Origin: an uncultured Clostridia bacterium
Lineage (GTDB): Bacteria > Bacillota > Clostridia > Oscillospirales > Oscillospiraceae
Assembly: GCA_947165825.1 (NCBI GenBank)
Contig: CAMVBX010000006.1
Span: forward strand, 1 to 38,466
Reading direction: 5' to 3'
DNA: 38,466 nucleotides
Shown: positions 8,104-38,203 of the stretch, piece after piece
Position numbering within the stretch: the first letter of the stretch is position 1
How the letters are laid out: the number at the start of each line of letters is the position of its first letter
The notes under the pieces: model-generated
The model's database searches: none
What the model was told of the DNA's origin: nothing
Seen by the model: the letters and a program-made list of their open reading frames with translations, nothing else
Translations under genes and position numbers: made by a program

Positions 8104-8424
8104 TATCGGCAAAGCCCCGCCCGACACGGGGCAGAGCCGCACTAGTCGGGGAGATAGCGGTGCCCTGTACCTGCAAACCGCTACAGCAGGGATGAATTCC
8201 CGCCCCCGGCCCTTTGGTGTGTTGTCTGCTCCCTGTAAGCAGTAATGACGGACCGGTCTTGCGCAACGCGGCCCCGTGAACCATGTCAGGCGGGAGACCG
8301 AGCAGCATTAAGCGGTGCGCCACGTGTGCCGCAAGGCAGCCGGTCCCGAGCCGGCTGCAGGGATACCGAACGGATCAGAGCGGTCAAAGGCGGGTGTGCG
8401 GTTCTGCCCTTTGCCGGGGCGGGC
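8104..8424 (+). ncRNA. ffs: Large bacterial signal recognition particle RNA (scRNA, with Alu domain)
   Basis: Alu-domain text CACTAGTCGGGGAGATAGCGGTGCCCTGTACCTGCAAACCGCTACAGCAGGGATGAATTCCC closely resembles Bacillus-type scRNA; S-domain CCATGTCAGGCGGGAGACCGAGCAGCATTAAG; 5'/3' ends pair; lies directly upstream of dnaX; T-run follows. 5' end approximate. Confidence 0.93.
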
Positions 8425-20347: not shown

Positions 20348-22752
20348 ATGAAAAAGGCCCTGTGTTTTGCGCTGCTCCTGACCCTGCTCCTCTCTGCCTG
20401 CGGACGGACGCCGGCACAGCCGACGGAGCCTGCCGGGACACCGGCACCGACGACAGCCCCGGAGTCCACCCCGACGCTCGCCCCGGAGCCGACTGCGGCC
20501 CCGACGACAGCCCCGAAGCCCACCCCGGAGCCGGAAGCCGCCCCGGAGCCGGAAGCCGCCCCGGAGCCGGAACCCCAGGATCCCCTGGAGCGGGCCCTGC
20601 GTTTCCTCCGGGCCCAGGACGGAGACTACGTGTCGAGGCATATAAACACGTACCTGGAGCTCTACCGCATGATGCATCCCGGGGCAAACGTCCTTGCCAC
20701 CGGCTGGACCCACGACGCCCGGCACATGCAGCTGGACATGATGGGTCTGGACGTCCAGGCCTTCCTGGATGCGGGGTACTTCCCGGACCTGGTGACGGTC
20801 AGTTCCAAGGGTTATGCCAATGAATTCGTCCCTCTGGCCGAGCCCATCCCCCGGGAGCCGGAGTGGGAACGGGTCTCCGAACAGGGCGTGCGGGTCACCA
20901 TGGACCGGGCGGACTGGTCGGTGGGGGCGGAATACGTGCGCTTCACCATGCGCAACGAGGGGGAGGAGCCCTATCTGTACGGGGCGGACGTGGAGCTGCA
21001 GAAGTATGTGGAGGGCAGCTGGAAGGCCCTCCGGCATTCGGGTGTGATCCTCGCCATTGGTTATTCCTTGAACCCGGGGAATGAGCGCAGCCTGACCCCG
21101 CCCATGGTCTACTTCCCCGCCCTGGGGGAGGGCCTGTACCGGGTGGGCTTCATCCGGGATGGGGTCTGGGCGGAATTCGCCGTCCGGGCCGACGCGGAAC
21201 CGGTGGACTTGAGCGATATCGGGCGCGTCAGTTGGCCGGAGGCGGCCCTGCTGCTGGCGGGGCTGCCGGAAACCGTGGAAAGCGATCTGCGTGACACCCG
21301 CTGGCCCGCCATGAGCAGCTTTTCCTGGGAACTGTGGGAGGAACGGCGATTCACCGATGAAGAACTTGCCGCTCTCCTCCTGGGGGAGAGGGCGGAGTAT
21401 GACGCCTCGGCGGAGGTCTACCGCCTGGGGAATGGAACCCTGGACCTGAAACAGGGGGCGGAGCTGGACCGGGATACCCTGCCGGCAAAGGCCCTGCGTC
21501 TGGTACTGGAAAACACGACGGATTCCCCGGAGAAGGCAGGGTGGAAGAGCCGCCAGCGGACGGCGATGCTCCCGCCTCTGGACAGCCTGTACCCGGAGAT
21601 CACCGTAAACAGTTATGCCCCGGATCCGGACGTGCTCATCAGAGGCTTGAAGCGGTCTTGGAAACGCTGGGGGAGGATGCGGGGGAACTCCGGGATTTCC
21701 GCTTCACTTCTGAGGACCTGCGGGACCTGCGGCTGCTGCTGGTCCCGGTGAGTACGGAAGGGAGTTACCCCAAGGGCTTTCCCCTGTGCTCCCCCGAGGG
21801 AGAGCTGGCGTCTTCGGCGGCCTGGTGCGTTTGCCGGAATACCTACGATACCGATAGCGGCGCCGTGAGCATGGAGTTCCTGGTCCTCCACGCCCGGTAT
21901 ACGGGCTATACCCTGGTGCCGGGAGAGCAGCGTCAGACCTGCTCTCCCCTGGAGCAGGCGGAGAAATTCATCCCCCTTTTGCAGGAGGAGGGGATCAGGC
22001 TGCGGAGCTTCGACTATGTGCTCATCCCCGACCTCCATGATCCGGAGGGGAAAACCCTGCATCCCGCCTACCGCCTCCTGGCGGAGACGGCGTCGGGGGA
22101 GGAGCGGTGCTTCGTGGTGAGCGCCGTGAGCAGAGGGGCGAGCGCCTACGATCTCCCCCGGCGGGCTTACCTGGAGGAGCTCATGAACGCCCATACGGTC
22201 ATGGATATCTTTGAGACCTGCTGGGCGCAGTACCCGGAGATGGACGTGTGGCCGGTGAGCTTCGGCATCCGGGCGTTGGAGGACGGAAGGGAAGCCCTGG
22301 TGATCGACTGCGACGGAGTGGACTGTCCCGCCCTGGAGGCCTCCGGGCTCCTGCCGGAGGGGGTGGCGCTGAACTATCCGGAGGAGAAGTTCAACCAAAA
22401 GGAAGCCCACCCCTGCCCCTGGGAGCCGGAGTGGGAGAAAAGCTGGGACGGGGGGACCGTCACCCTCACCATGGCCCGGGCGGAATACCCCCTATACCCC
22501 GATCACGTGGAACTGACGGTGCGCTGCGAGAGGTCATTCAACCGAGACTGGGACCGCTTTGAAAAGTACGCGGAGGGAGAGTGGCACAACGTGCGCAGCT
22601 CAATGGCCGGCACCCTGGGCCTGCGCTACGTGGAGTCCGGGGAGACGGTGCTGCAGGTGAGGACCAACGCCAAGCTGGGACCGGGCCTCTACCGCCTGTA
22701 CCTCACCAAGGAATACTGGGTGGAGTTCAAGGTCTCTGAAATGGAAGAGTAA
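20348..22752 (+). pseudogene. Large lipoprotein (paralog A), frameshifted near 21640; tandem paralog of 23086-25422
   Basis: MKKALCFALLLTLLLSACGRT lipobox; ORF 20348-21751 runs out of frame near LIRGLKRSW and the homologous protein continues as HQRLEAVLETLGEDAGELRDFRFTSEDL... to 22752. Paralog B reads GVLNARLEAALETLG at the same place. Confidence 0.75.
20524..20571 (+). repeat. 18-bp tandem repeat encoding AAPEPE in the lipoprotein linker
   Basis: GCCCCGGAGCCGGAAGCC repeated ~3x (CCGGAGCCGGAAGCCGCCCCGGAGCCGGAAGCCGCCCCGGAGCCGGAA). Confidence 0.7.
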
Positions 22753-22984: not shown

Positions 22985-23020
22985 ATTTTGCGGATATTCT
23001 GACTTTTTTGCCAAAACCCC

Positions 23021-23051
23021 TTGACATTGACGCGGCGTCAAATTGTAGGGT
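23021..23051 (+). promoter_or_regulatory. MerR-type promoter, duplicate of 20284-20314
   Basis: TTGACA-[TTGACGCGGCGTCAAATTG]-TAGGGT; identical to the copy before paralog A. Confidence 0.6.
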
Positions 23052-23085
23052 GGAGGCAGAAAACGAAATAACGGAGGTGCTGAAC

Positions 23086-25422
23086 ATGAAAAAGGCCCTG
23101 TGTTATGTCCTGGCTCTGGCACTGGTCCTGGGGTTTTCCGCCTGCGGCGGAAGGCCGGATCCGGTCCCATCGCCGGAGAGCACGCCGACGCCCGCCCCGG
23201 AACCGACTGCGGCCCCGACGCCGGAGCCGACGCCCGCCCCGGAACCGGAGCCAGGCCAGGACCCCCTGGAGCGGGCCCTGGCCTGGCTCCGGGCGCAGAA
23301 GGACTGGAACTTTGTCGGCGCCCATCTGGGCACCTATCAGGAGCTCTATGAACTGACCCATCCCGGGGCGGACATCCAGATCCTGGGCGGCGGAATCGGC
23401 GCGAAGGAGGTATCCATAGAGGTGGCCGGGACGGATGCCCAGGCCTTTGCCGAAGCGGGATACTTCTCGGACCGGTTCACGATCCACCCGAAGAAAAACG
23501 GCGATCCCTGTTTTCCTCAGGATCTGCCCATCCCCCGGGAGCCGGAGAGCGACCACATTTCGGACCGGGGCCTGCGCATCACCATGGATCGGGCGGTGTG
23601 GCCTGTGGGGACGGATTACCTGCGCTTTACGGTAGAGAAGGAGCCAGGGGAAAACCTGGAATTCTGCCTGGAGAAGTATGCGGACGGGACATGGATACGG
23701 TATCTTTGGCCCGGCGCGAGCATAGGGAACGATCTTGGCCTGCTGCGGCGCGCCGGTACGTATTATATGAATACGCAGCTTTTACCCCGGCTGGGGGAGG
23801 GACTGTACCGCATCTTCGTTTCCCCGGAGGGGGACTGGGCGGAATTCGTCGTCCGCGCCGATGCGGAGCCCCTGGCCCTGGAACCCCTGGTCCGTCGAAG
23901 CTGGCCGGAGGCGGCCCTGCTCCTGGCGGGACTGCCGGAGCATGTGGAGACCGACCTGCGGGGCACCGTCTGGCCTGCCATGAGCCATACCTGGCAGGTG
24001 ATGGAGGATCAGAGCCTGACGGATGAAGCATTGGCGGAGCTGCTGCTGGGGACGGGGGCGGAGGTCGACCCCTCCGGGGAGGTCTGGCGCGCCGGGGAAC
24101 TGACCCTCAGCACCGGGGAAGAGATCCGGGTGGAAGACGATTCCCTGCTTACCCGGGCCCTCCGGCTGACGCTTCCCCTGCGGGACCCGGAGACCCGGGA
24201 TCCCCGGGAGCTTCCCTCCCTGGAGGAGGCGGGATGGACGTACGTGGGGATCGACTCCAACGTATACGGTCTTTCCCGTCTGTTCCCCCGGACGGGCTTC
24301 CGGTGCTATTCCCCGGATATCGGCGTGCTGAACGCCAGGCTGGAGGCAGCCCTGGAGACCCTTGGGCCGGAGGATCCCCGGCATGCAGAGCTGGCAGACT
24401 TCCGCTTCACGCAGGAGGATGCAAAGAAACTCTTCCTGGCTCTGCTCCCCATCCAGACGAGGGCAGCGGAATATATGCTTACAGAGATTTCCCTGGTTTC
24501 CCCCTGGGGTGCAATGGACGAAGCTGCAGCCTGGTGCGTTTACCGGAAAGACAAGGGAATTTTGCTCCTGGAGGCCAGGTATCCGGATCACCGCCTGGAG
24601 CCGGAGAACGCCTGGGAGACGCTCAGCCCGGAGGAACAGATCGAGAAATTCCTCCCCCTGATGGAGGGGGAGGAGGAAGGACTGCGTCTCACCCGGATGG
24701 ACTATGTGCTCATCCCCGGAAATGAGGAGGGGATATTCCAGCCCGCCTGGCGCCTCCTGGCGGAGACGGCCTCCGGGGAGGTGCGGACCTGGGTGGCGAG
24801 CACCCGGAACGATCGGCAGAGCGCCTACGACCTGCAGCGGCGGGCTTATCTGCTGGAGCTCCAGAAGCCCAACGGGATCCGGCACATTTTCCAAAGCTTC
24901 CGGGAGGAGTATCCGGACATGGACGTGTGGGAGGACAGCTGGGGGATCGATCTGCTGGAGGACGGCAGGGACTACCTGGTGGTGCTGTGCCATGGAGCGG
25001 ACATCCCGGCCCTGGAGGCCTCCGGCTTCCTGCCGGATGGAGTGGTGTTGGATTGGATCGAAAGCCCCTTCAACCAAAAGGAATCCCACCCCTGCCCCCA
25101 TGAGCCGGAGTGGGAAAAGGACTGGGGGACCGTTCGTCTTGCCATGGGTCAGGCGGAGTATCCTCCGTATCCCGGATCTGTGGAGCTGACAGTGGGCTTG
25201 GAAAAAACCTTCCGGCTGCAACCGCTCGTCTGCAAAAAGTACATGGACGGGGAATGGAGAACCGTATGCCGGGTGGATCTCGACCAGCCGCTTCGCGAGG
25301 AGGGGGAAACGACCCTGCAGGCAGCCCCTTTAGCCAGGCTGGGGCCGGGCCTTTACCGCCTGTATCTCAACGACAAGTTCTGGGTGGAATTCAAGATAAC
25401 CGATCGTACAGCTGAAAACTAG
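23086..25422 (+). CDS. Large lipoprotein (paralog B) with N- and C-terminal Ig-like repeat-type domains; unknown function
   Basis: MKKALCYVLALALVLGFSACGG lipobox, Pro/Glu-rich linker, PIPREPESDHISDRGLRITMDRAVWPVGTDYLRFTV...LGEGLYRIFVSPEGDWAEFVV and C-terminal CPHEPEWEKDWGTVRLAMGQAEYPPYPGSVELTV...LGPGLYRLYLNDKFWVEFKI. Intact; GGAGGTG RBS. Confidence 0.88.
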   Translation: MKKALCYVLALALVLGFSACGGRPDPVPSPESTPTPAPEPTAAPTPEPTPAPEPEPGQDPLERALAWLRAQKDWNFVGAHLGTYQELYELTHPGADIQILGGGIGAKEVSIEVAGTDAQAFAEAGYFSDRFTIHPKKNGDPCFPQDLPIPREPESDHISDRGLRITMDRAVWPVGTDYLRFTVEKEPGENLEFCLEKYADGTWIRYLWPGASIGNDLGLLRRAGTYYMNTQLLPRLGEGLYRIFVSPEGDWAEFVVRADAEPLALEPLVRRSWPEAALLLAGLPEHVETDLRGTVWPAMSHTWQVMEDQSLTDEALAELLLGTGAEVDPSGEVWRAGELTLSTGEEIRVEDDSLLTRALRLTLPLRDPETRDPRELPSLEEAGWTYVGIDSNVYGLSRLFPRTGFRCYSPDIGVLNARLEAALETLGPEDPRHAELADFRFTQEDAKKLFLALLPIQTRAAEYMLTEISLVSPWGAMDEAAAWCVYRKDKGILLLEARYPDHRLEPENAWETLSPEEQIEKFLPLMEGEEEGLRLTRMDYVLIPGNEEGIFQPAWRLLAETASGEVRTWVASTRNDRQSAYDLQRRAYLLELQKPNGIRHIFQSFREEYPDMDVWEDSWGIDLLEDGRDYLVVLCHGADIPALEASGFLPDGVVLDWIESPFNQKESHPCPHEPEWEKDWGTVRLAMGQAEYPPYPGSVELTVGLEKTFRLQPLVCKKYMDGEWRTVCRVDLDQPLREEGETTLQAAPLARLGPGLYRLYLNDKFWVEFKITDRTAEN

Positions 25423-31311: not shown

Positions 31312-33498
31312 ATGGAGCATAGACGACTGGAGCTGGCCCTGTACGGAAAGGGCGGCATCGGCAAGTCCACGGTCAGCGCAAACCTCTCCGCCGCCCTGGC
31401 GGCGGCGGGCAGCCGGGTTCTGCAGGTGGGCTGCGATCCCAAGCATGATTCCACCCGGCTGCTCCTGGGAGGCGGGAGTCTCCCCACGGTGCTGGATTAT
31501 CTGCGGACCGTGCCCAGGGAGCAGGAAAGGCTGGATGCGGTGCTCCGCACGGGCTGGGGCAAGATCGGCTGCGTGGAGGCCGGCGGACCGAAGCCCGGCG
31601 TGGGCTGCGCGGGCCGGGGCATCATCACCGCCTTTGAATTTCTGGAGCGCCATCGGGCAAAGGCGAATTATGACGTTCTGATCTACGACGTGCTGGGGGA
31701 CGTGGTCTGCGGCGGCTTCGCCGTGCCCATCCGCCGGGAATATGCCGACGCGGTTTTTCTGGTGACCAGCGGAGAATTCATGGCCCTGTACGCCGCAAAC
31801 AATATTCTCCGGGGGATCCGGAATTTTGACGGCGGGGAATGCCGCCGCGCGGCGGGGATCATCTTCAATGCGCGGAACCTGTCCGGGGAGGCGGAGCGGG
31901 TGGAACGCTTCGCCCGGGCGGTGGGACTGCCCATCGTGGCCCGTGTCCCACGGAGCGAGGCCTTCGCCCGGGGAGAGGAGGCGGGAAAACCCCTCCTTGC
32001 CTTGGAAGGCTATGATCGGGAGAAGGCGGTATTCACCCGCCTGGCGGAGACGATCCGCAGCGGTCTGACCCTGTATGAAGCCCGCCCTCTAGAGGATGAA
32101 GCCCTGGAGGAGGTGGTGCTCCGCGGCGGCACCGCGGCTCCGGCTGCGGCTGCGGAACCGACTCCGGAACCGCAGCAGAAAGCAAAGACTTCCGATCCGG
32201 CCCCGGCGCCGGACGAACCCCGGATGCCGCTGTACGGCTGCGCCTTCAACGGCGCCGCCACCACGGCGGTCCACCTGACGGACGCGCTGGTGATCGCCCA
32301 TTCTCCCCGGTCCTGCGCCTTCTATACCTGGCAGAATATCAGCTCCCCCGGACGGCGGAATCTGTTCAACCGGGGGATCCTCATGCCCTCTGCCATCAGC
32401 CCGGGCTTCGAAACCACGGAAATCGGCCATGCCGAGGCGGTATTCGGCGGCGTGGAGAAGCTCAGGGCGCAGGTGGAGCGGGCCTTGGAGCGAAAGCCCG
32501 GGGCGGTGGTGGTGATCAGTTCCTGCGTCAGCGGGATCATCGGGGACGATCTCCTCAGCCTGGAGCGCCTCTCCACCCCGGAAACTCCGGTGATCGCCGT
32601 ACCGGCGGACGGAGTCCTGGGCGGGGACTATATGGAAGGGATCCGACTTTGCCTCCACACCCTGGCGGAGAAGCTGGTGCGTCGGGACGCGCCACTCCGG
32701 CCCAGGACGGTGAACCTCATCGGCGAGGTGGGGGTGAGCAACAATACCCAGGTGGACTATCAGACCCTGCGCCGTCTTCTGGGGGAAATGGGGATCTCCA
32801 TCGGCTGCCGCTTCCTGGGGGACTGTACGGCGCAGGAGCTGCGGGATCTGCTGAGCGCGCCGCTGAACCTTCTGGCCACGGACAGCCAGGACAATCTGGA
32901 GCTGAAGGCGTGGCTGGAAACGGAATACGGCTGCCGTTTCCACCCGGGCTGCCTGCCCATCGGTTTCCGGGCCACCCGGAATTTCCTCCTGGAGCTGGGG
33001 GACTTCTTCGGCTGCCGGGAGGAGGCGGAGGCCCTGATTTCCCGGGAAGAAGCGGATTACCGGCGGGAGATCGAAAGCCTTCGGCCTCTGCTGCAGGGAA
33101 AACGCATCCTGATGACCACCATCAACGCCAATCTGGACTGGCTCCTGGATGCGGCGGAGGACTGCGGCATGGAGTTCGTGTGGATCGGCGTGCTGAATTA
33201 TCTCCACCGGGAACTGCGGATCACGGACCGGCAGGAGCGGAATGCCGTCATCCGGGAGATCACCGGGGGAGATATCGTGGAACAGCGCATTCGGGAGCTG
33301 AAGCCGGATATGGTCCTGGGAAACTACACCGCCCGGGCGGAGGGCGGAGAGTATATCGCGGATACGCTGCCCATGACCCAGCCCATCGGCTTCGGCTCCG
33401 GGCTGACGGTCCTGCGCCGCTGGGCGCAGCTGAACAAGAACGAAAGAGAGGGGGAGTGGGAGCATGACCGGGTCTGGTTTGAACAGTATTTTGCCTGA
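31312..33498 (+). CDS. Nitrogenase-like fusion: NifH-type reductase ATPase + NifD-like component 1 subunit
   Basis: NifH part: ALYGKGGIGKSTVSANLSAAL...QVGCDPKHDSTRLLL...CVEAGGPKPGVGCAGRGIITAFEFLE (Cys99)...YDVLGDVVCGGFAVPIR (Cys133). Linker GGTAAPAAAAEPTPEPQQKAKTSDPAPAPDEPRM. NifD-like part: YGCAFNGAATTAVHLTDALVIAHSPRSCAFYTW (Cys310, Cys335)...VVISSCVSGIIGDDL (Cys405). Confidence 0.93.
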   Translation: MEHRRLELALYGKGGIGKSTVSANLSAALAAAGSRVLQVGCDPKHDSTRLLLGGGSLPTVLDYLRTVPREQERLDAVLRTGWGKIGCVEAGGPKPGVGCAGRGIITAFEFLERHRAKANYDVLIYDVLGDVVCGGFAVPIRREYADAVFLVTSGEFMALYAANNILRGIRNFDGGECRRAAGIIFNARNLSGEAERVERFARAVGLPIVARVPRSEAFARGEEAGKPLLALEGYDREKAVFTRLAETIRSGLTLYEARPLEDEALEEVVLRGGTAAPAAAAEPTPEPQQKAKTSDPAPAPDEPRMPLYGCAFNGAATTAVHLTDALVIAHSPRSCAFYTWQNISSPGRRNLFNRGILMPSAISPGFETTEIGHAEAVFGGVEKLRAQVERALERKPGAVVVISSCVSGIIGDDLLSLERLSTPETPVIAVPADGVLGGDYMEGIRLCLHTLAEKLVRRDAPLRPRTVNLIGEVGVSNNTQVDYQTLRRLLGEMGISIGCRFLGDCTAQELRDLLSAPLNLLATDSQDNLELKAWLETEYGCRFHPGCLPIGFRATRNFLLELGDFFGCREEAEALISREEADYRREIESLRPLLQGKRILMTTINANLDWLLDAAEDCGMEFVWIGVLNYLHRELRITDRQERNAVIREITGGDIVEQRIRELKPDMVLGNYTARAEGGEYIADTLPMTQPIGFGSGLTVLRRWAQLNKNEREGEWEHDRVWFEQYFA

Positions 33499-34702
33499 CT
33501 GCACCACCGGCGCCATCTTTGCGGTGGAGGGGATCCAAAACGCCGTGGTGCTGCTGAACGGACCCATGGGCTGCCGCTTCTACCACAGCACCACCTCCCG
33601 TTTCCTCACCATCCGCCCGCTGCTCCGTCTGCCTGAGGAGGAGGGGAAAGACCCCAGGCCGGTGGATTACAACACCCTGAACAACTGGTTCTTCCGCCAG
33701 GAGCGGGTGCCCTGTACCTGGCTGGACGGACGGGACTTTGTGTACGGGACGAAGGACAAGGTGCTGGAGGCTCTGGCCTATATCCGGGATCACGTGGCCT
33801 TCGACCTCCTGGCCATCGTGGATTCCCCCGGAGCCTCCCTCATCGGGGACGCGCTCCTGGAGCCAGCCCGGGGTATCCTGGGGGATAAGGTCGTGCTGCT
33901 GGAATCTCCGGGGTGGTCCGCCTCCTTTGAAGACGGCGCCTCCTATGCCGCCCTGGAGCTGCTGCGGAAGGGCGTCAGACTTCACCGTACCGGGGAAAGG
34001 AGAGAAGGGAAGTCCGTGAATCTTCTGGGCTTCAATCTCTGGCAGCGGTACCAGGAAGGGGATATCCTGGAAATGAAACGGCTCCTGGAGCTCTGCGGGA
34101 TCGGGGTCAACGCGGTCCTTTGCGCGGGCTGCAGTCTTCCCGAGCTGGAGCGGATGCCGGAGGCTGACCTGAACCTGGTGGTCTACCCGGAGCTGGGGCT
34201 GGACTGCGCCGGATACCTGGAGGAAGCCTGGGGCATGCCGTACTTTGTCTGCCCCACTCTGCCCGTGGGCTTCCGGGCGACGGAGGAGCTTCTGGAGGAA
34301 CTGTGCCGCCGGCTGGGGATGGATCCCGCCCCGGCCCTGGAGGACAGCCGTCGGGCCAGGGCCCTGGCCTGGTACAAGATCCGGGATATCCAGCAGAGCT
34401 ACGGCAGGCCCAGGGGTGTCCGATTCCACGTGGATATCGGCCCCAGCGCGGATAAGGCCTATACCGCATTTCTCCGGGATTACCTGGCGATGGAGCCCTC
34501 GCCGCCGGGGGAGGCGGAGCTGGTGTTTTCCGACGCAAACGTCATCGCGGAGCTGATGCTGGAGAACAAGCGCTTCTGCGGCATCGAAGCCCGGATGCCC
34601 GGCATGGGCTATACGGATCTGATCCCCAAGACCCATCTGGGGGTGCAGGGCGCCCTGTTTCTCATCGAACAGGTCTTGAACGGCCTGATGAGCAAAATCT
34701 GA
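33464..34702 (+). CDS. Nitrogenase component 1-like protein (NifK/NifE-like)
   Basis: LPDCTTGAIFAVEGIQNAVVLLNGPMGCRFYHSTTSRFL (Cys13, Cys37)...FDLLAIVDSPGASLIGDAL...CPTLPVGFRATEELLEEL...WYKIRDIQQSYGRPRGVRFHVDIGPSADKAYTAFLRDYLAMEP...KTHLGVQGALFLIEQVLNGLM; overlaps upstream ORF by 35 bp. Confidence 0.88.
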   Translation: MTGSGLNSILPDCTTGAIFAVEGIQNAVVLLNGPMGCRFYHSTTSRFLTIRPLLRLPEEEGKDPRPVDYNTLNNWFFRQERVPCTWLDGRDFVYGTKDKVLEALAYIRDHVAFDLLAIVDSPGASLIGDALLEPARGILGDKVVLLESPGWSASFEDGASYAALELLRKGVRLHRTGERREGKSVNLLGFNLWQRYQEGDILEMKRLLELCGIGVNAVLCAGCSLPELERMPEADLNLVVYPELGLDCAGYLEEAWGMPYFVCPTLPVGFRATEELLEELCRRLGMDPAPALEDSRRARALAWYKIRDIQQSYGRPRGVRFHVDIGPSADKAYTAFLRDYLAMEPSPPGEAELVFSDANVIAELMLENKRFCGIEARMPGMGYTDLIPKTHLGVQGALFLIEQVLNGLMSKI

Positions 34703-34802
34703 AACAGAAAATCCGAATCTGCCTGTTCACCCCTTGCGGGATACCCCGCAGGGGGTGTATTATGCTGGAGAATTAGCCTATGCTTACAAAGGAGTACATG
34801 CC

Positions 34803-35837
34803 ATGATTCCCTTCGATGAGAAGTATTGCCTGGATACCTTCCGGCGTCTGCTGGAGGTGGACAGCACCACCGGCCAGTATGAGGAGATCCAGAAGCTTCT
34901 TTGCGCCATTCTGGAGGAACTGGGTTATTCCTATTCCACCGTGCGGAAGGGCGGCGTCATCGCAGACCTGGGGGGCGAGGGAAACGCCCTGTGCCTCACC
35001 GCCCATGTGGACGATATCGGCCTTATGGTGCGCCATGTGAACCGGGACGGGACCCTGAACGTCTGCTCCGTGGGGGGACTGTACCCCTTCTACTGCGTGA
35101 CGGAAAATGTCCGGGTGTATACCCGGGAGGGAAAGGTTTTTACCGGCACCGTATGCCGTACGCCCAATTCCATCCACGTGACGGAGGAGGAGCTGCGCGC
35201 CGTGCTGCCGGATTTCCGCACCAATGTGTGCGTGGTGCTGGACGCGGACACCCGCAGCGCGGAGGAGACGAAAGCCCTGGGGGTGGATACGGGGGATATC
35301 ATCGCCCTGGAGCCCCGAATGGCCCTTTCCGGCGGGTATCTCAAGAGCCGGTTTATCGACGATAAGGCCTGCGCCGCCCTGCTCCTTGCCCTGATGAAGG
35401 GAATCAGGGAGAGCGGTAAGACCCTGGGGCGGAAGGTCTACGCCTATTTCGCCATGTATGAGGAGATCGGTCACGGCACCGTCGTGCTGCCCGGGGACGT
35501 GGAGGATATGATCGCCATCGATATCGCCCCCACAGGGCCGGATCAGAATTCCGATGAGCGGAAGGTCTCCATCTTTGCCAAGGATTCCCGCTATCCCTAC
35601 CACTGGGGCCTGACCAACGAGATCCGGGCAGCGGCGATCCGGGCGGGCGTCCCCTTCGAGATGGACATCTTCACCCCCCATTACGGTACGGACTGTGACC
35701 CCGTCATCACGGCGGGCTATGACGTGCGCCATGGGGCCATCGGTCCCGGCACCGCCAACAGCCACGGCTACGAGCGCACCCATCTGGAGGGACTCAAGGC
35801 TACCCATGACCTGCTGGCAGCCTGCCTCAATCTGTAA
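34803..35837 (+). CDS. M42 family metallopeptidase
   Basis: RLLEVDSTTGQYEEIQKLLCAILEELGY...LCLTAHVDDIGLMV...GGYLKSRFIDDKACAALLLALM...YAYFAMYEEIGHG...IAIDIAPTG...HGYERTHLEGLKATHDLL; RBS AAAGGAG. Confidence 0.93.
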   Translation: MIPFDEKYCLDTFRRLLEVDSTTGQYEEIQKLLCAILEELGYSYSTVRKGGVIADLGGEGNALCLTAHVDDIGLMVRHVNRDGTLNVCSVGGLYPFYCVTENVRVYTREGKVFTGTVCRTPNSIHVTEEELRAVLPDFRTNVCVVLDADTRSAEETKALGVDTGDIIALEPRMALSGGYLKSRFIDDKACAALLLALMKGIRESGKTLGRKVYAYFAMYEEIGHGTVVLPGDVEDMIAIDIAPTGPDQNSDERKVSIFAKDSRYPYHWGLTNEIRAAAIRAGVPFEMDIFTPHYGTDCDPVITAGYDVRHGAIGPGTANSHGYERTHLEGLKATHDLLAACLNL

Positions 35838-35857
35838 ACGGACAAGGAAGAGATCAG

Positions 35858-38203
35858 ATGACCTTACGGGATCTGGAAATCGGAAAAAGCGCCGTCGTCA
35901 CCGCCATCGGCGGACAGGGCGCGTTGCGGCAGCATTTCCTGGATATGGGCGTTCTTCCGGGAGCGGAGATCACGGTGGTGAAATACGCCCCCATGGGAGA
36001 TCCCATGGAGCTGATGATCCACGGCTACTCCCTTACCCTGCGTCTGGCGGACGCGGAGAAGATCACGGTGGAGCCCGTCCGGGGGGAGCACCGGGAGCCG
36101 GAGAAACCGGACCAGCGGAAGAAGACCGCCCACCCCGGCCTGGGGGAGGGCGGCGAGTTCCACCCCAAGGGCAGCGGGGATCCCCTGCCGGAGGGAACGC
36201 TGCTTACCTTCGCCCTGGTGGGGAACCAGAACTGCGGAAAAACCACCCTGTTCAATCAGCTCACCGGCGCCAATCAGCACGTGGGGAATTTTCCCGGGGT
36301 CACGGTGGACCGGAAGGACGGACAGATCCGGGGCCATTCGGATACCCGGGTGACGGATCTGCCGGGGATCTATTCCATGTCCCCCTATACCAGCGAGGAG
36401 ATCGTCTCCCGGAACTTTGTCATCCGGGAGAAGCCCAAGGCGATCATCAATATTCTGGACGCCACCAATATCGAACGGAACCTGTATCTCACCATGCAGC
36501 TCCTGGAGATGGACGTGCCCATGGTGGTGGCCCTGAATATGATGGACGAGGTAGCCGCCAACGGCGGAAGCATTGACATCAACCGCATGGAGAACCTCCT
36601 GGGCGTGCCTGTGGTGGCCATCGCCGCCGCGAAAAACTCCGGCGTGGATGAGCTGGTGGACCACGCCATCCATATCGCCCATTACCAGGAAAAGCCCCAG
36701 CGCCAGGATTTCTGCGGGGCGGATGACAACGGCGGCGCGGTACACCGCTGCCTCCACGGCATCAGTCATCTCATCGAGGACCACGCCCGTCGGGCAGGGC
36801 TGCCTCTGCGCTTCGCCGCATCCAAGGTGGTGGAAGGAGACCCGCTCATTCTGGAGCAGCTGGAGTTGGACGAAAACGAGCGGGACATGGTGGAGCACAT
36901 CATCCTCCAGATGGAGGCGGAGCGGGGACTGGATCGGAGCGCCGCCATTGCGGATATGCGCTTCCGCTTCATCGGGGAGACCTGCCGGGAGACCGTCATC
37001 AAGCCCAGACAGTCCCGGGAAAAGGTCCGCAGCGAGCGGATAGACCGGATCCTGACGGGGAAATATACCGCTATCCCCACCTTCGTCCTCATCATGGCCC
37101 TGGTGTTCTGGCTCACCTTCAACGTCATCGGAGCTAAGCTCCAGGAGCTGATGGATCTGGGCATCGGCGCCCTGACGGAGCTGGCGGACCGGCTTCTGAC
37201 CGCCGGAAACGTCAACGAAGCCCTCCATGGCCTGATCATCGACGGGATCTTTACCGGGGTGGGCAGTGTACTCAGCTTTCTGCCCATTATCGTGACCCTG
37301 TTTTTCTTCCTCTCCCTGCTGGAGGACAGCGGCTATATCGCCCGGGTGGCCTTCGTGATGGACAAGCTGCTCAGAAAGATCGGTCTTTCCGGCCGCAGCA
37401 TCGTGCCGATGCTGATCGGCTTCGGCTGTACGGTCCCTGCAGTTATGTCAACCAGAACCCTGCCCTCGGAGCGGGACCGGAAAATGACGATCCTGCTGAC
37501 GCCCTTTATGAGCTGCACCGCCAAGCTGCCGATTTACGCGTTTTTTGTCGGGGCCTTTTTCCCGAAGCAGGGCGGCCTGCTTATGATCGGGCTCTATTGC
37601 CTCGGGATCATCCTGGGGGTGCTGGCCGCCTTCCTGTACAAGGGGACCCTGTTCCGGGGCGAGCCGGTGCCCTTCGTGATGGAGCTGCCCAATTACCGCC
37701 TTCCCGGGGCGAAAAACGTGCTGCGGCTCCTGTGGGAAAAGGCCGGAGATTTTCTGAAGCGCGCCTTCACCGTCATCCTCATCGCCACGGTGGTCATCTG
37801 GTTCCTGAAGAGCTTCGATCCCCGCTTTGATCTGGTGCGGGATTCCCAGAAGAGCATCCTGGCCATGATCGCCGGTATCCTGACCCCCATTATGCGGCCC
37901 CTGGGCCTGGGGGATTGGCGGATCTGCACCTCCCTGATCTGCGGCTTCACCGCGAAGGAAAGCGTGGTCTCCACCATGGAGCTACTGTTCGGCGGCAGCG
38001 TGGAGCAGGCGTTGACCGCCCTTGGCGCTGCCTGCATGCTGGTATTCTCCCTGCTGTATACCCCCTGCGTGGCGGCGGTGGCCGCCGTGCGGCGGGAGCT
38101 GGGACGCCGCTGGTCCCTGGGCGTGGTGGTCTGGCAGTGCGCGGTGGCCTGGCTGGCGACCCTGGCGGTCCGGGGCGTGCTGATCCTGTTGGGAGTGCGA
38201 TAG
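35858..38203 (+). CDS. feoB: Ferrous iron transporter: FeoA domain fused to FeoB
   Basis: N-terminal FeoA-like MTLRDLEIGKSAVVTAIGGQGALRQHFLDMGVLPGAEITVVKYAPMGDPMELMIHGYSLTLRLADAEKITVEPV; then FALVGNQNCGKTTLFNQLTGANQHVGNFPGVTVDRKDG...VTDLPGIYSMSPYTSEEIVSRNFV...NMMDEV and FeoB Gate/TM regions. Confidence 0.95.
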   Translation: MTLRDLEIGKSAVVTAIGGQGALRQHFLDMGVLPGAEITVVKYAPMGDPMELMIHGYSLTLRLADAEKITVEPVRGEHREPEKPDQRKKTAHPGLGEGGEFHPKGSGDPLPEGTLLTFALVGNQNCGKTTLFNQLTGANQHVGNFPGVTVDRKDGQIRGHSDTRVTDLPGIYSMSPYTSEEIVSRNFVIREKPKAIINILDATNIERNLYLTMQLLEMDVPMVVALNMMDEVAANGGSIDINRMENLLGVPVVAIAAAKNSGVDELVDHAIHIAHYQEKPQRQDFCGADDNGGAVHRCLHGISHLIEDHARRAGLPLRFAASKVVEGDPLILEQLELDENERDMVEHIILQMEAERGLDRSAAIADMRFRFIGETCRETVIKPRQSREKVRSERIDRILTGKYTAIPTFVLIMALVFWLTFNVIGAKLQELMDLGIGALTELADRLLTAGNVNEALHGLIIDGIFTGVGSVLSFLPIIVTLFFFLSLLEDSGYIARVAFVMDKLLRKIGLSGRSIVPMLIGFGCTVPAVMSTRTLPSERDRKMTILLTPFMSCTAKLPIYAFFVGAFFPKQGGLLMIGLYCLGIILGVLAAFLYKGTLFRGEPVPFVMELPNYRLPGAKNVLRLLWEKAGDFLKRAFTVILIATVVIWFLKSFDPRFDLVRDSQKSILAMIAGILTPIMRPLGLGDWRICTSLICGFTAKESVVSTMELLFGGSVEQALTALGAACMLVFSLLYTPCVAAVAAVRRELGRRWSLGVVVWQCAVAWLATLAVRGVLILLGVR

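Follow-up and report, generated by a model that had tools for sequence, protein, structure and literature searches.

Introduction

In the characterised enzymes of the nitrogenase type, the reductase docks on the catalytic component and leaves it again. Here we describe HD-K, a two-gene system in which the reductase is tethered. It lies in a 38,466-nucleotide stretch of DNA from an uncultured Clostridia bacterium of the Oscillospiraceae (contig CAMVBX010000006.1, assembly GCA_947165825.1), and we refer to that whole stretch as the window. One gene, hd, joins a NifH-type reductase (H) to a component-1 alpha-like domain (D), and the other, k, encodes a component-1 beta-like partner (K). HD-K is monophyletic and represents a probably undescribed lineage within the nitrogenase superfamily, one whose reductase is tethered to the catalytic subunit. 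In the open-access literature (subscription papers and preprint-only work were outside its scope) we found no description of a NifH-NifD fusion, of Lachnospiraceae nitrogenase-like genes or of a nitrogenase-like corrinoid enzyme.

Several described systems resemble parts of this arrangement. Dark-operative protochlorophyllide oxidoreductase (DPOR; BchL with BchN/BchB) also combines a NifH-type ATPase with a two-subunit component, an interface [4Fe-4S] cluster (predicted for HD-K) and no cofactor of the iron-molybdenum (FeMoco) type, and K is nearest to BchB by both NCBIfam score and fold. However, BchL is a separate protein, HD-K scores far below the BchL/N/B cut-offs, and the cluster ligand of BchB is Asp36, where K has Cys37. 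CfbCD likewise pairs a NifH-type ATPase with a component-1 protein that acts on a tetrapyrrole, and the H domain scores best against CfbC (298 bits). Yet CfbC is a protein of its own and CfbD lacks a distinct beta subunit, whereas K accompanies HD in all complete loci. The NifEN scaffold places three cluster cysteines in its alpha-like subunit and one in its beta-like subunit, as HD-K does, but NifEN serves nitrogenase, and the carriers of HD-K have neither nitrogenase nor NifB above cut-off (10 of 11 examined). Natural gene fusion itself has a precedent in the superfamily, the NifE-NifN fusion (e.g. PDB 9i0g), although that fusion joins two component-1 subunits and not a reductase to component 1.

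Two further systems belong to the Group IV nitrogenase-like enzymes. In MarHDK, the methylthio-alkane reductase, six cysteines hold the P-cluster and the cofactor is of the [Fe8S9C] type (PMC12552129). The K profile matches MarK with about 100 bits and the D profile matches MarD with 91 bits, but the six cysteines and the [Fe8S9C] ligands are missing in HD-K, which falls in a separate clade. IsrHDK, the isethionate reductase, is a three-part nitrogenase-like enzyme (PMC11423573) with a separate H and an adjacent radical S-adenosylmethionine (SAM) gene, isrB, that is absent at HD-K; the two are set apart here by description.

The family may also matter beyond enzymology. By NifH, 23% of rumen genomes have been scored nitrogenase-positive, while rumen nitrogen fixation is reported to be negligible and nifH expression low (PMC6776011). 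HD-type enzymes may be counted as nifH in such nitrogen-fixation surveys.

The HD fusion protein and its partner

The architecture of HD-K is certain. HD is a single open reading frame (ORF) of 728 amino acids on the forward strand (31312-33498), as are all the features given for this locus, and its NifH domain, linker and component-1 alpha domain follow one another in one frame. Its full length is kept in other genomes. The NifH-type ATPase/[4Fe-4S] domain (residues 8-269; 31333-32118) matches PF00142 with 285 bits, and within the D domain (32221-33495) residues 310-695 match PF00148 with 222 bits. Both scores, like the 139 bits of K against PF00148, lie above the curated Pfam cut-offs (25 bits for Fer4_NifH and 28.6 bits for Oxidored_nitro) and place the proteins in the superfamily; with E-values of 1e-84 and 2e-65, the presence of HD's two domains in one open frame is far above chance. 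The NifH motifs quoted in a preliminary description of this DNA, made from the letters alone, are all present in the H part. The Walker A motif (near 31345-31371) and the H cluster ligands C99 (31606-31608) and C133 (31708-31710) are invariant in 36 fusions.

The linker, rich in Ala, Pro and Glu, spans residues 271-303 (32122-32220), about where the preliminary description had placed it, and is variable among homologues. In the AlphaFold2 model of HD the mean predicted local distance difference test score (pLDDT) is 80, with fair to good confidence in both domains, while residues 276-303 fall below 50, which suggests a disordered, flexible linker. The H part of the model resembles NifH structures, and the best PDB sequence match of D is NifE-like.

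The second ORF, K (412 residues; 33464-34702), had been recognised as overlapping and component-1 beta-like, and both properties hold. It starts 35 nt within the HD ORF in the window, and an almost identical overlap (about 35 nt) recurs in most homologous loci. BchB of DPOR is the closest fold to its model (pLDDT 81).

Conservation of the fusion across genomes

A survey of fusion conservation had been proposed as a check, and it found the fusion widely. In a sample of 201 genomes from the same family as the window, a full-length, stop-free fusion occurs in seven, of which one is the window's own genome and the remaining six show 62-66% identity. A GTDB scan with two short D motifs returned 44 loci, mostly in metagenome-assembled genomes (MAGs) from ruminants or other guts, filed under Lachnospiraceae and Oscillospiraceae, and including the isolate Acetitomaculum ruminis DSM 5522 and Lachnospiraceae bacterium TWA4. 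Walker A and the start of the D domain share one reading frame in 35 of the 44. Remoter fusions surfaced only through a class-level sample: three, unbroken, in 99-100% complete genomes from two other families.

These counts bear on the simplest objection, namely that an assembly or sequencing error joined two separate genes. Such an error could be suspected in a window that comes from a 73%-complete MAG, and the H and D parts do lie in different frames at the linker in two of the 44 loci (L085, L086), while the H part is broken in TWA4 (L089). Seven of the 44 loci are damaged by contig-end truncation, upstream interruption or a gap. Against this, many assemblies, few-contig genomes and A. ruminis DSM 5522 among them, contain the fusion unbroken (35 cases), with both domains kept around a variable linker. 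A stop or frameshift in the linker had been named as a possible flaw, and the window has no stop there. PCR or resequencing had been suggested in answer to that concern, which is settled because the fusion has been independently assembled in many other genomes. We therefore rule out an artefactual fusion and regard an error as vanishingly improbable.

Over 36 fusions, mean identity to the window is 69% in H, 58% in D and 16% in the linker, whose length runs from 33 to 80 residues. As judged from these alignments, H and D are two constrained domains joined by a free tether.

Phylogeny and family scores

The preliminary description had called this a candidate undescribed system and proposed phylogeny as a check. 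That view is supported: in the trees the fused proteins cluster with one another as a clade, apart from the characterised groups compared. The reference set comprised NifH/D/K/E/N, BchL/N/B, MarD/K and three gut nitrogenase-like types, with CfbD, BchY/Z and Isr outside the tree; CfbCD and BchX/Z were judged by NCBIfam scores alone. In the maximum-likelihood H tree, all 26 fused H domains lie on one side of a branch with support 96/89. In the D/K tree, the fused D domains form one clade (100/100), and so do the fused K proteins (100/100). Both clades are separate from the MarD/MarK clade, and fused D lies near NifD/NifE and MarD with weak exact placement (85/36). Taken together, the trees indicate one origin for the fused family, which is separate from Nif, Mar, BchN/B and the three gut types.

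Scores against the NCBIfam equivalog models give a similar picture. Those for DPOR are all below cut-off (BchL 204 bits against 345, BchN 57 against 420, BchB 92 against 490), as are those for chlorophyllide oxidoreductase (COR; BchX 197 against 331, BchZ 47 against 529) and for CfbCD (CfbC against a cut-off of 402, CfbD 31 against 268). CfbC is nonetheless the top-scoring model for the H domain. All nif models score HD and K far under cut-off.

Cluster ligands and missing nitrogenase parts

HD-K is not a nitrogenase. None of the 27 fused D domains aligned has residues corresponding to the FeMoco ligands Cys275 and His442 of NifD. In place of six P-cluster cysteines, there are three in D and one in K. 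The D cysteines C310 (32239-32241), C335 (32314-32316) and C405 (32524-32526) align with NifD Cys62, Cys88 and Cys154. In K the sole cluster-type cysteine, C37 (33572-33574), aligns with NifK Cys95, and the other two positions hold Asp and Pro. Every aligned K has Cys37 at the BchB cluster-ligand position, and the Asp of BchB is missing there. The cofactor ligand Cys270 of MarD is also absent from the HD-K alignment, as are the six P-cluster cysteines (Mar ligands: PMC12552129).

Three cysteines in D and one in K make up the pattern of the NifEN [4Fe-4S] site. Given what is established about such ligands, this pattern leads us to predict an interface [4Fe-4S] cluster, without P-cluster or FeMoco, as the likely assignment for HD-K.

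The resemblance to NifEN invites the idea that HD-K is a minimal nitrogenase or a NifEN-like nitrogenase scaffold, and the NifE-like PDB match of D points the same way as its cysteines. The genomes argue otherwise. In 10 of 11 carrier genomes the fused H is the sole NifH-type protein, and HD and K are the sole component-1 proteins above cut-off, with no NifD, NifK or second component-1 pair; the exception is A. ruminis, which has additional unfused nitrogenase-like genes. No match to NifB rises above cut-off in any of the 11. With the FeMoco ligands absent from fused D and the nif scores as low as they are, we consider a nitrogenase or scaffold role highly improbable. The preliminary description had seen no maturation genes in the window, and this extends to whole carrier genomes.

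Association with corrin synthesis

CbiD is a marker of the anaerobic pathway to the corrin ring of B12. It is present in 41 of 43 carriers of the fusion. In the family sample it occurs in 71 of 201 genomes, namely all seven carriers and 64 of the 194 non-carriers (33%); in the class sample it occurs in 108 of 392 genomes, and in 104 of the 388 non-carriers (27%). Fisher tests give p = 3e-19 against the class non-carriers and p = 6e-4 within the family, values that ignore relatedness and serve only as a guide. Carriers of unfused nitrogenase-like genes show no such excess of CbiD (14 of 38), and ThiC, a control from the thiamine pathway, shows no bias (5 of 38 carriers versus 7 of 42 chosen non-carriers). 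Both CbiD and CbiJ are present in the genome from which the window comes.

Replacement of CbiJ by HD-K is ruled out, as CbiJ is found in the same 41 of 43 carriers as CbiD. Displacement of another cbi gene was likewise rejected: no gene is consistently absent when 29 carrier cbi regions are set against 20 non-carrier ones, a comparison weakened by the many regions cut by contig ends.

Genomic neighbourhoods and rival functions

Apart from K, HD has no conserved operon partner across loci; cysK recurs in four loci and MATE transporters in five. Three kinds of context nevertheless suggest a connection with corrinoids. In G231, a 100% complete genome in three contigs, a cobalamin riboswitch (34.6 bits against a gathering score of 31.5) is followed about 90 bp further on by a run of genes that share one strand. 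The run begins with a membrane protein without family match, a double ATP-binding cassette/energy-coupling factor (ABC/ECF) ATPase and an alpha-alpha toroid/S-layer homology (SLH) protein, followed by a DUF4430 protein, HD, K and an ECF S component. Together, the toroid and DUF4430 proteins are reminiscent of transcobalamin, a putative analogy. The membrane protein looks EcfT-like by eye. In L069, cbiG follows HD-K after 26 nt, and hemL, cbiF, hemA-cbiH and a hemC-like gene (by eye) also adjoin; this hem/cbi cluster stands behind a 117.5-bit cobalamin riboswitch on the opposite strand. In G589 and G431, finally, a PF04071 gene whose homologues occur in three cbi regions lies directly upstream of HD.

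General control of HD-K by cobalamin riboswitches was considered and dropped: among the carrier loci scanned (all but L084 and L092-L094), one stands ahead of HD-K only in L132 and L069, and the window has none.

Other neighbours would suit a sulfur-acquisition reductase like MarHDK/IsrHDK, which would cleave C-S bonds of organosulfur compounds and pass the sulfur to cysteine synthesis. A cysteine synthase gene lies 3' of K in the same orientation in the related L058 and L064, upstream in L066 and divergently in L083; D groups loosely with MarD and NifD/E; and Mar and Isr, known enzymes of Group IV, have sulfur compounds as substrates (PMC12552129, PMC11423573). These four loci are the only ones with cysK nearby, however, and the P-cluster and [Fe8S9C] ligands of Mar (PMC12552129) are missing from HD-K. 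The carriers, moreover, have no NifB above cut-off, and neither the window nor most loci have a radical SAM gene beside HD-K (L036/L058 has a TrsS-like one upstream). On this evidence we judge a sulfur function improbable.

HD-K might also reduce some other metal complex or cofactor (e.g. by releasing iron from a siderophore or heme, or by acting on a non-corrinoid tetrapyrrole), in which case the B12 association would be indirect. Sporomusa termitida and gut genomes do have unfused nitrogenase-like trios within clusters for ferric-siderophore uptake, feoAB lies 3' of K in the window, and K resembles BchB. The D and K proteins of Sporomusa, though, are only very distantly related to their fused counterparts (42 and 41 bits), feoAB is not a recurrent neighbour, and for both reasons an iron/siderophore function drawn from either was rejected. 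The CbiD association, by contrast, is strong and is absent for the unfused types. We therefore regard this wider alternative as unlikely, if a little less so than a sulfur function.

For HD-K as a tethered ATP-driven reductase, the substrate is most likely a corrinoid or related tetrapyrrole; we hold this reading as a reasoned guess with about an even chance of being right. The narrower reading, that HD-K is dedicated to the ATP-driven reduction of corrinoids and has gone unrecognised as an enzyme of anaerobic B12 synthesis or salvage, seems to us possible but rather doubtful. Several observations weigh against a corrinoid role. No corrinoid gene adjoins HD-K in the window or in most loci, and the neighbours vary. 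In G231 the riboswitch barely clears the threshold, and no substrate is assigned to the S component. Two carriers, G662 and G678 (MAGs of unstated completeness), have neither CbiD nor CbiJ, and the CbiD association was computed without correction for relatedness. No adenosyltransferase or chelatase is consistently linked to, or missing with, HD-K. Many cobalamin producers have no fusion, so HD-K is not essential to the pathway.

A proposed mechanism

In the mechanism we propose, HD together with K is a self-contained, ATP-driven member of the nitrogenase superfamily that works as a reductase and is probably sensitive to oxygen. Two H domains would pair, holding one [4Fe-4S] cluster and binding two MgATP as in known NifH. 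This pairing would take place within an (HD)2K2 assembly because the fused H is the only H in most carriers and the NifH cluster needs two subunits, and one H2 head would then serve the two D/K halves in turn. The long linker would let the H2 pair dock on the D/K face and pass one electron into the [4Fe-4S] cluster held by three D cysteines and one K cysteine; the pair would swing away for re-reduction while staying within the complex. As the preliminary description had argued, tethering would be expected to change both the stoichiometry and the electron-delivery cycle.

With no FeMoco- or L-cluster-type cofactor, electrons would reach a substrate in the D/K cavity. The gating would be that of DPOR, COR and CfbCD, where ATP hydrolysis in a NifH-type dimer sends single electrons through an interface [4Fe-4S] cluster to an organic or metal-organic substrate. 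The substrate could be a corrinoid or corrinoid precursor, reduced from Co(II) to Co(I) in readiness for adenosylation, a reaction that low-potential, ATP-coupled electrons would suit. Equally compatible would be reduction of its macrocycle, as in DPOR, COR and CfbCD. As a dedicated corrinoid enzyme, HD-K might, for example, reduce Co(II) to Co(I) ahead of adenosylation, with an electron donor that never leaves the catalytic subunit.

HD-K thus offers a test case for whether an ATP-gated cycle needs dissociation and for how two halves may share one reductase dimer. Should the B12 link prove true, the superfamily would gain a further tetrapyrrole among its substrates, and HD-K may close a gap in anaerobic cobalamin metabolism.

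Other observations

Unfused NifH/D/K-like trios were seen in iron-siderophore uptake clusters at L127:1625-14074 (Sporomusa termitida plasmid pSPTER), L050:4291-11577 and L044:4867-11084. The surrounding genes encode a TonB receptor, an AraC regulator and an iron ABC transporter, with an esterase-like gene in Sporomusa. Such trios are candidates for a nitrogenase-like ferric-siderophore reductase. Another unfused nitrogenase-like type (L041, L045, L048, L133) sits among hypF/hypD/hypE-like hydrogenase-maturation genes (names by eye) and occurs in gut Clostridia and A. ruminis. At L056:3821-7878, the genes after K resemble, by eye, larB and larC (nickel-pincer cofactor synthesis).

In the window, an M42 aminopeptidase and a FeoA-FeoB fusion protein are encoded 3' of K (34797-38203); the aminopeptidase neighbours HD-K otherwise only in the near relatives L051 and L052. 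Two adjoining paralogous secreted/lipoprotein-like genes lie at 20348-22752 and 23008-25422. Compared with the second, the first looks frameshifted, being split over two overlapping frames (ORFs 20348-21751 and 21541-22752). A bacterial large signal recognition particle RNA (192 bits) is located at 8137-8401.

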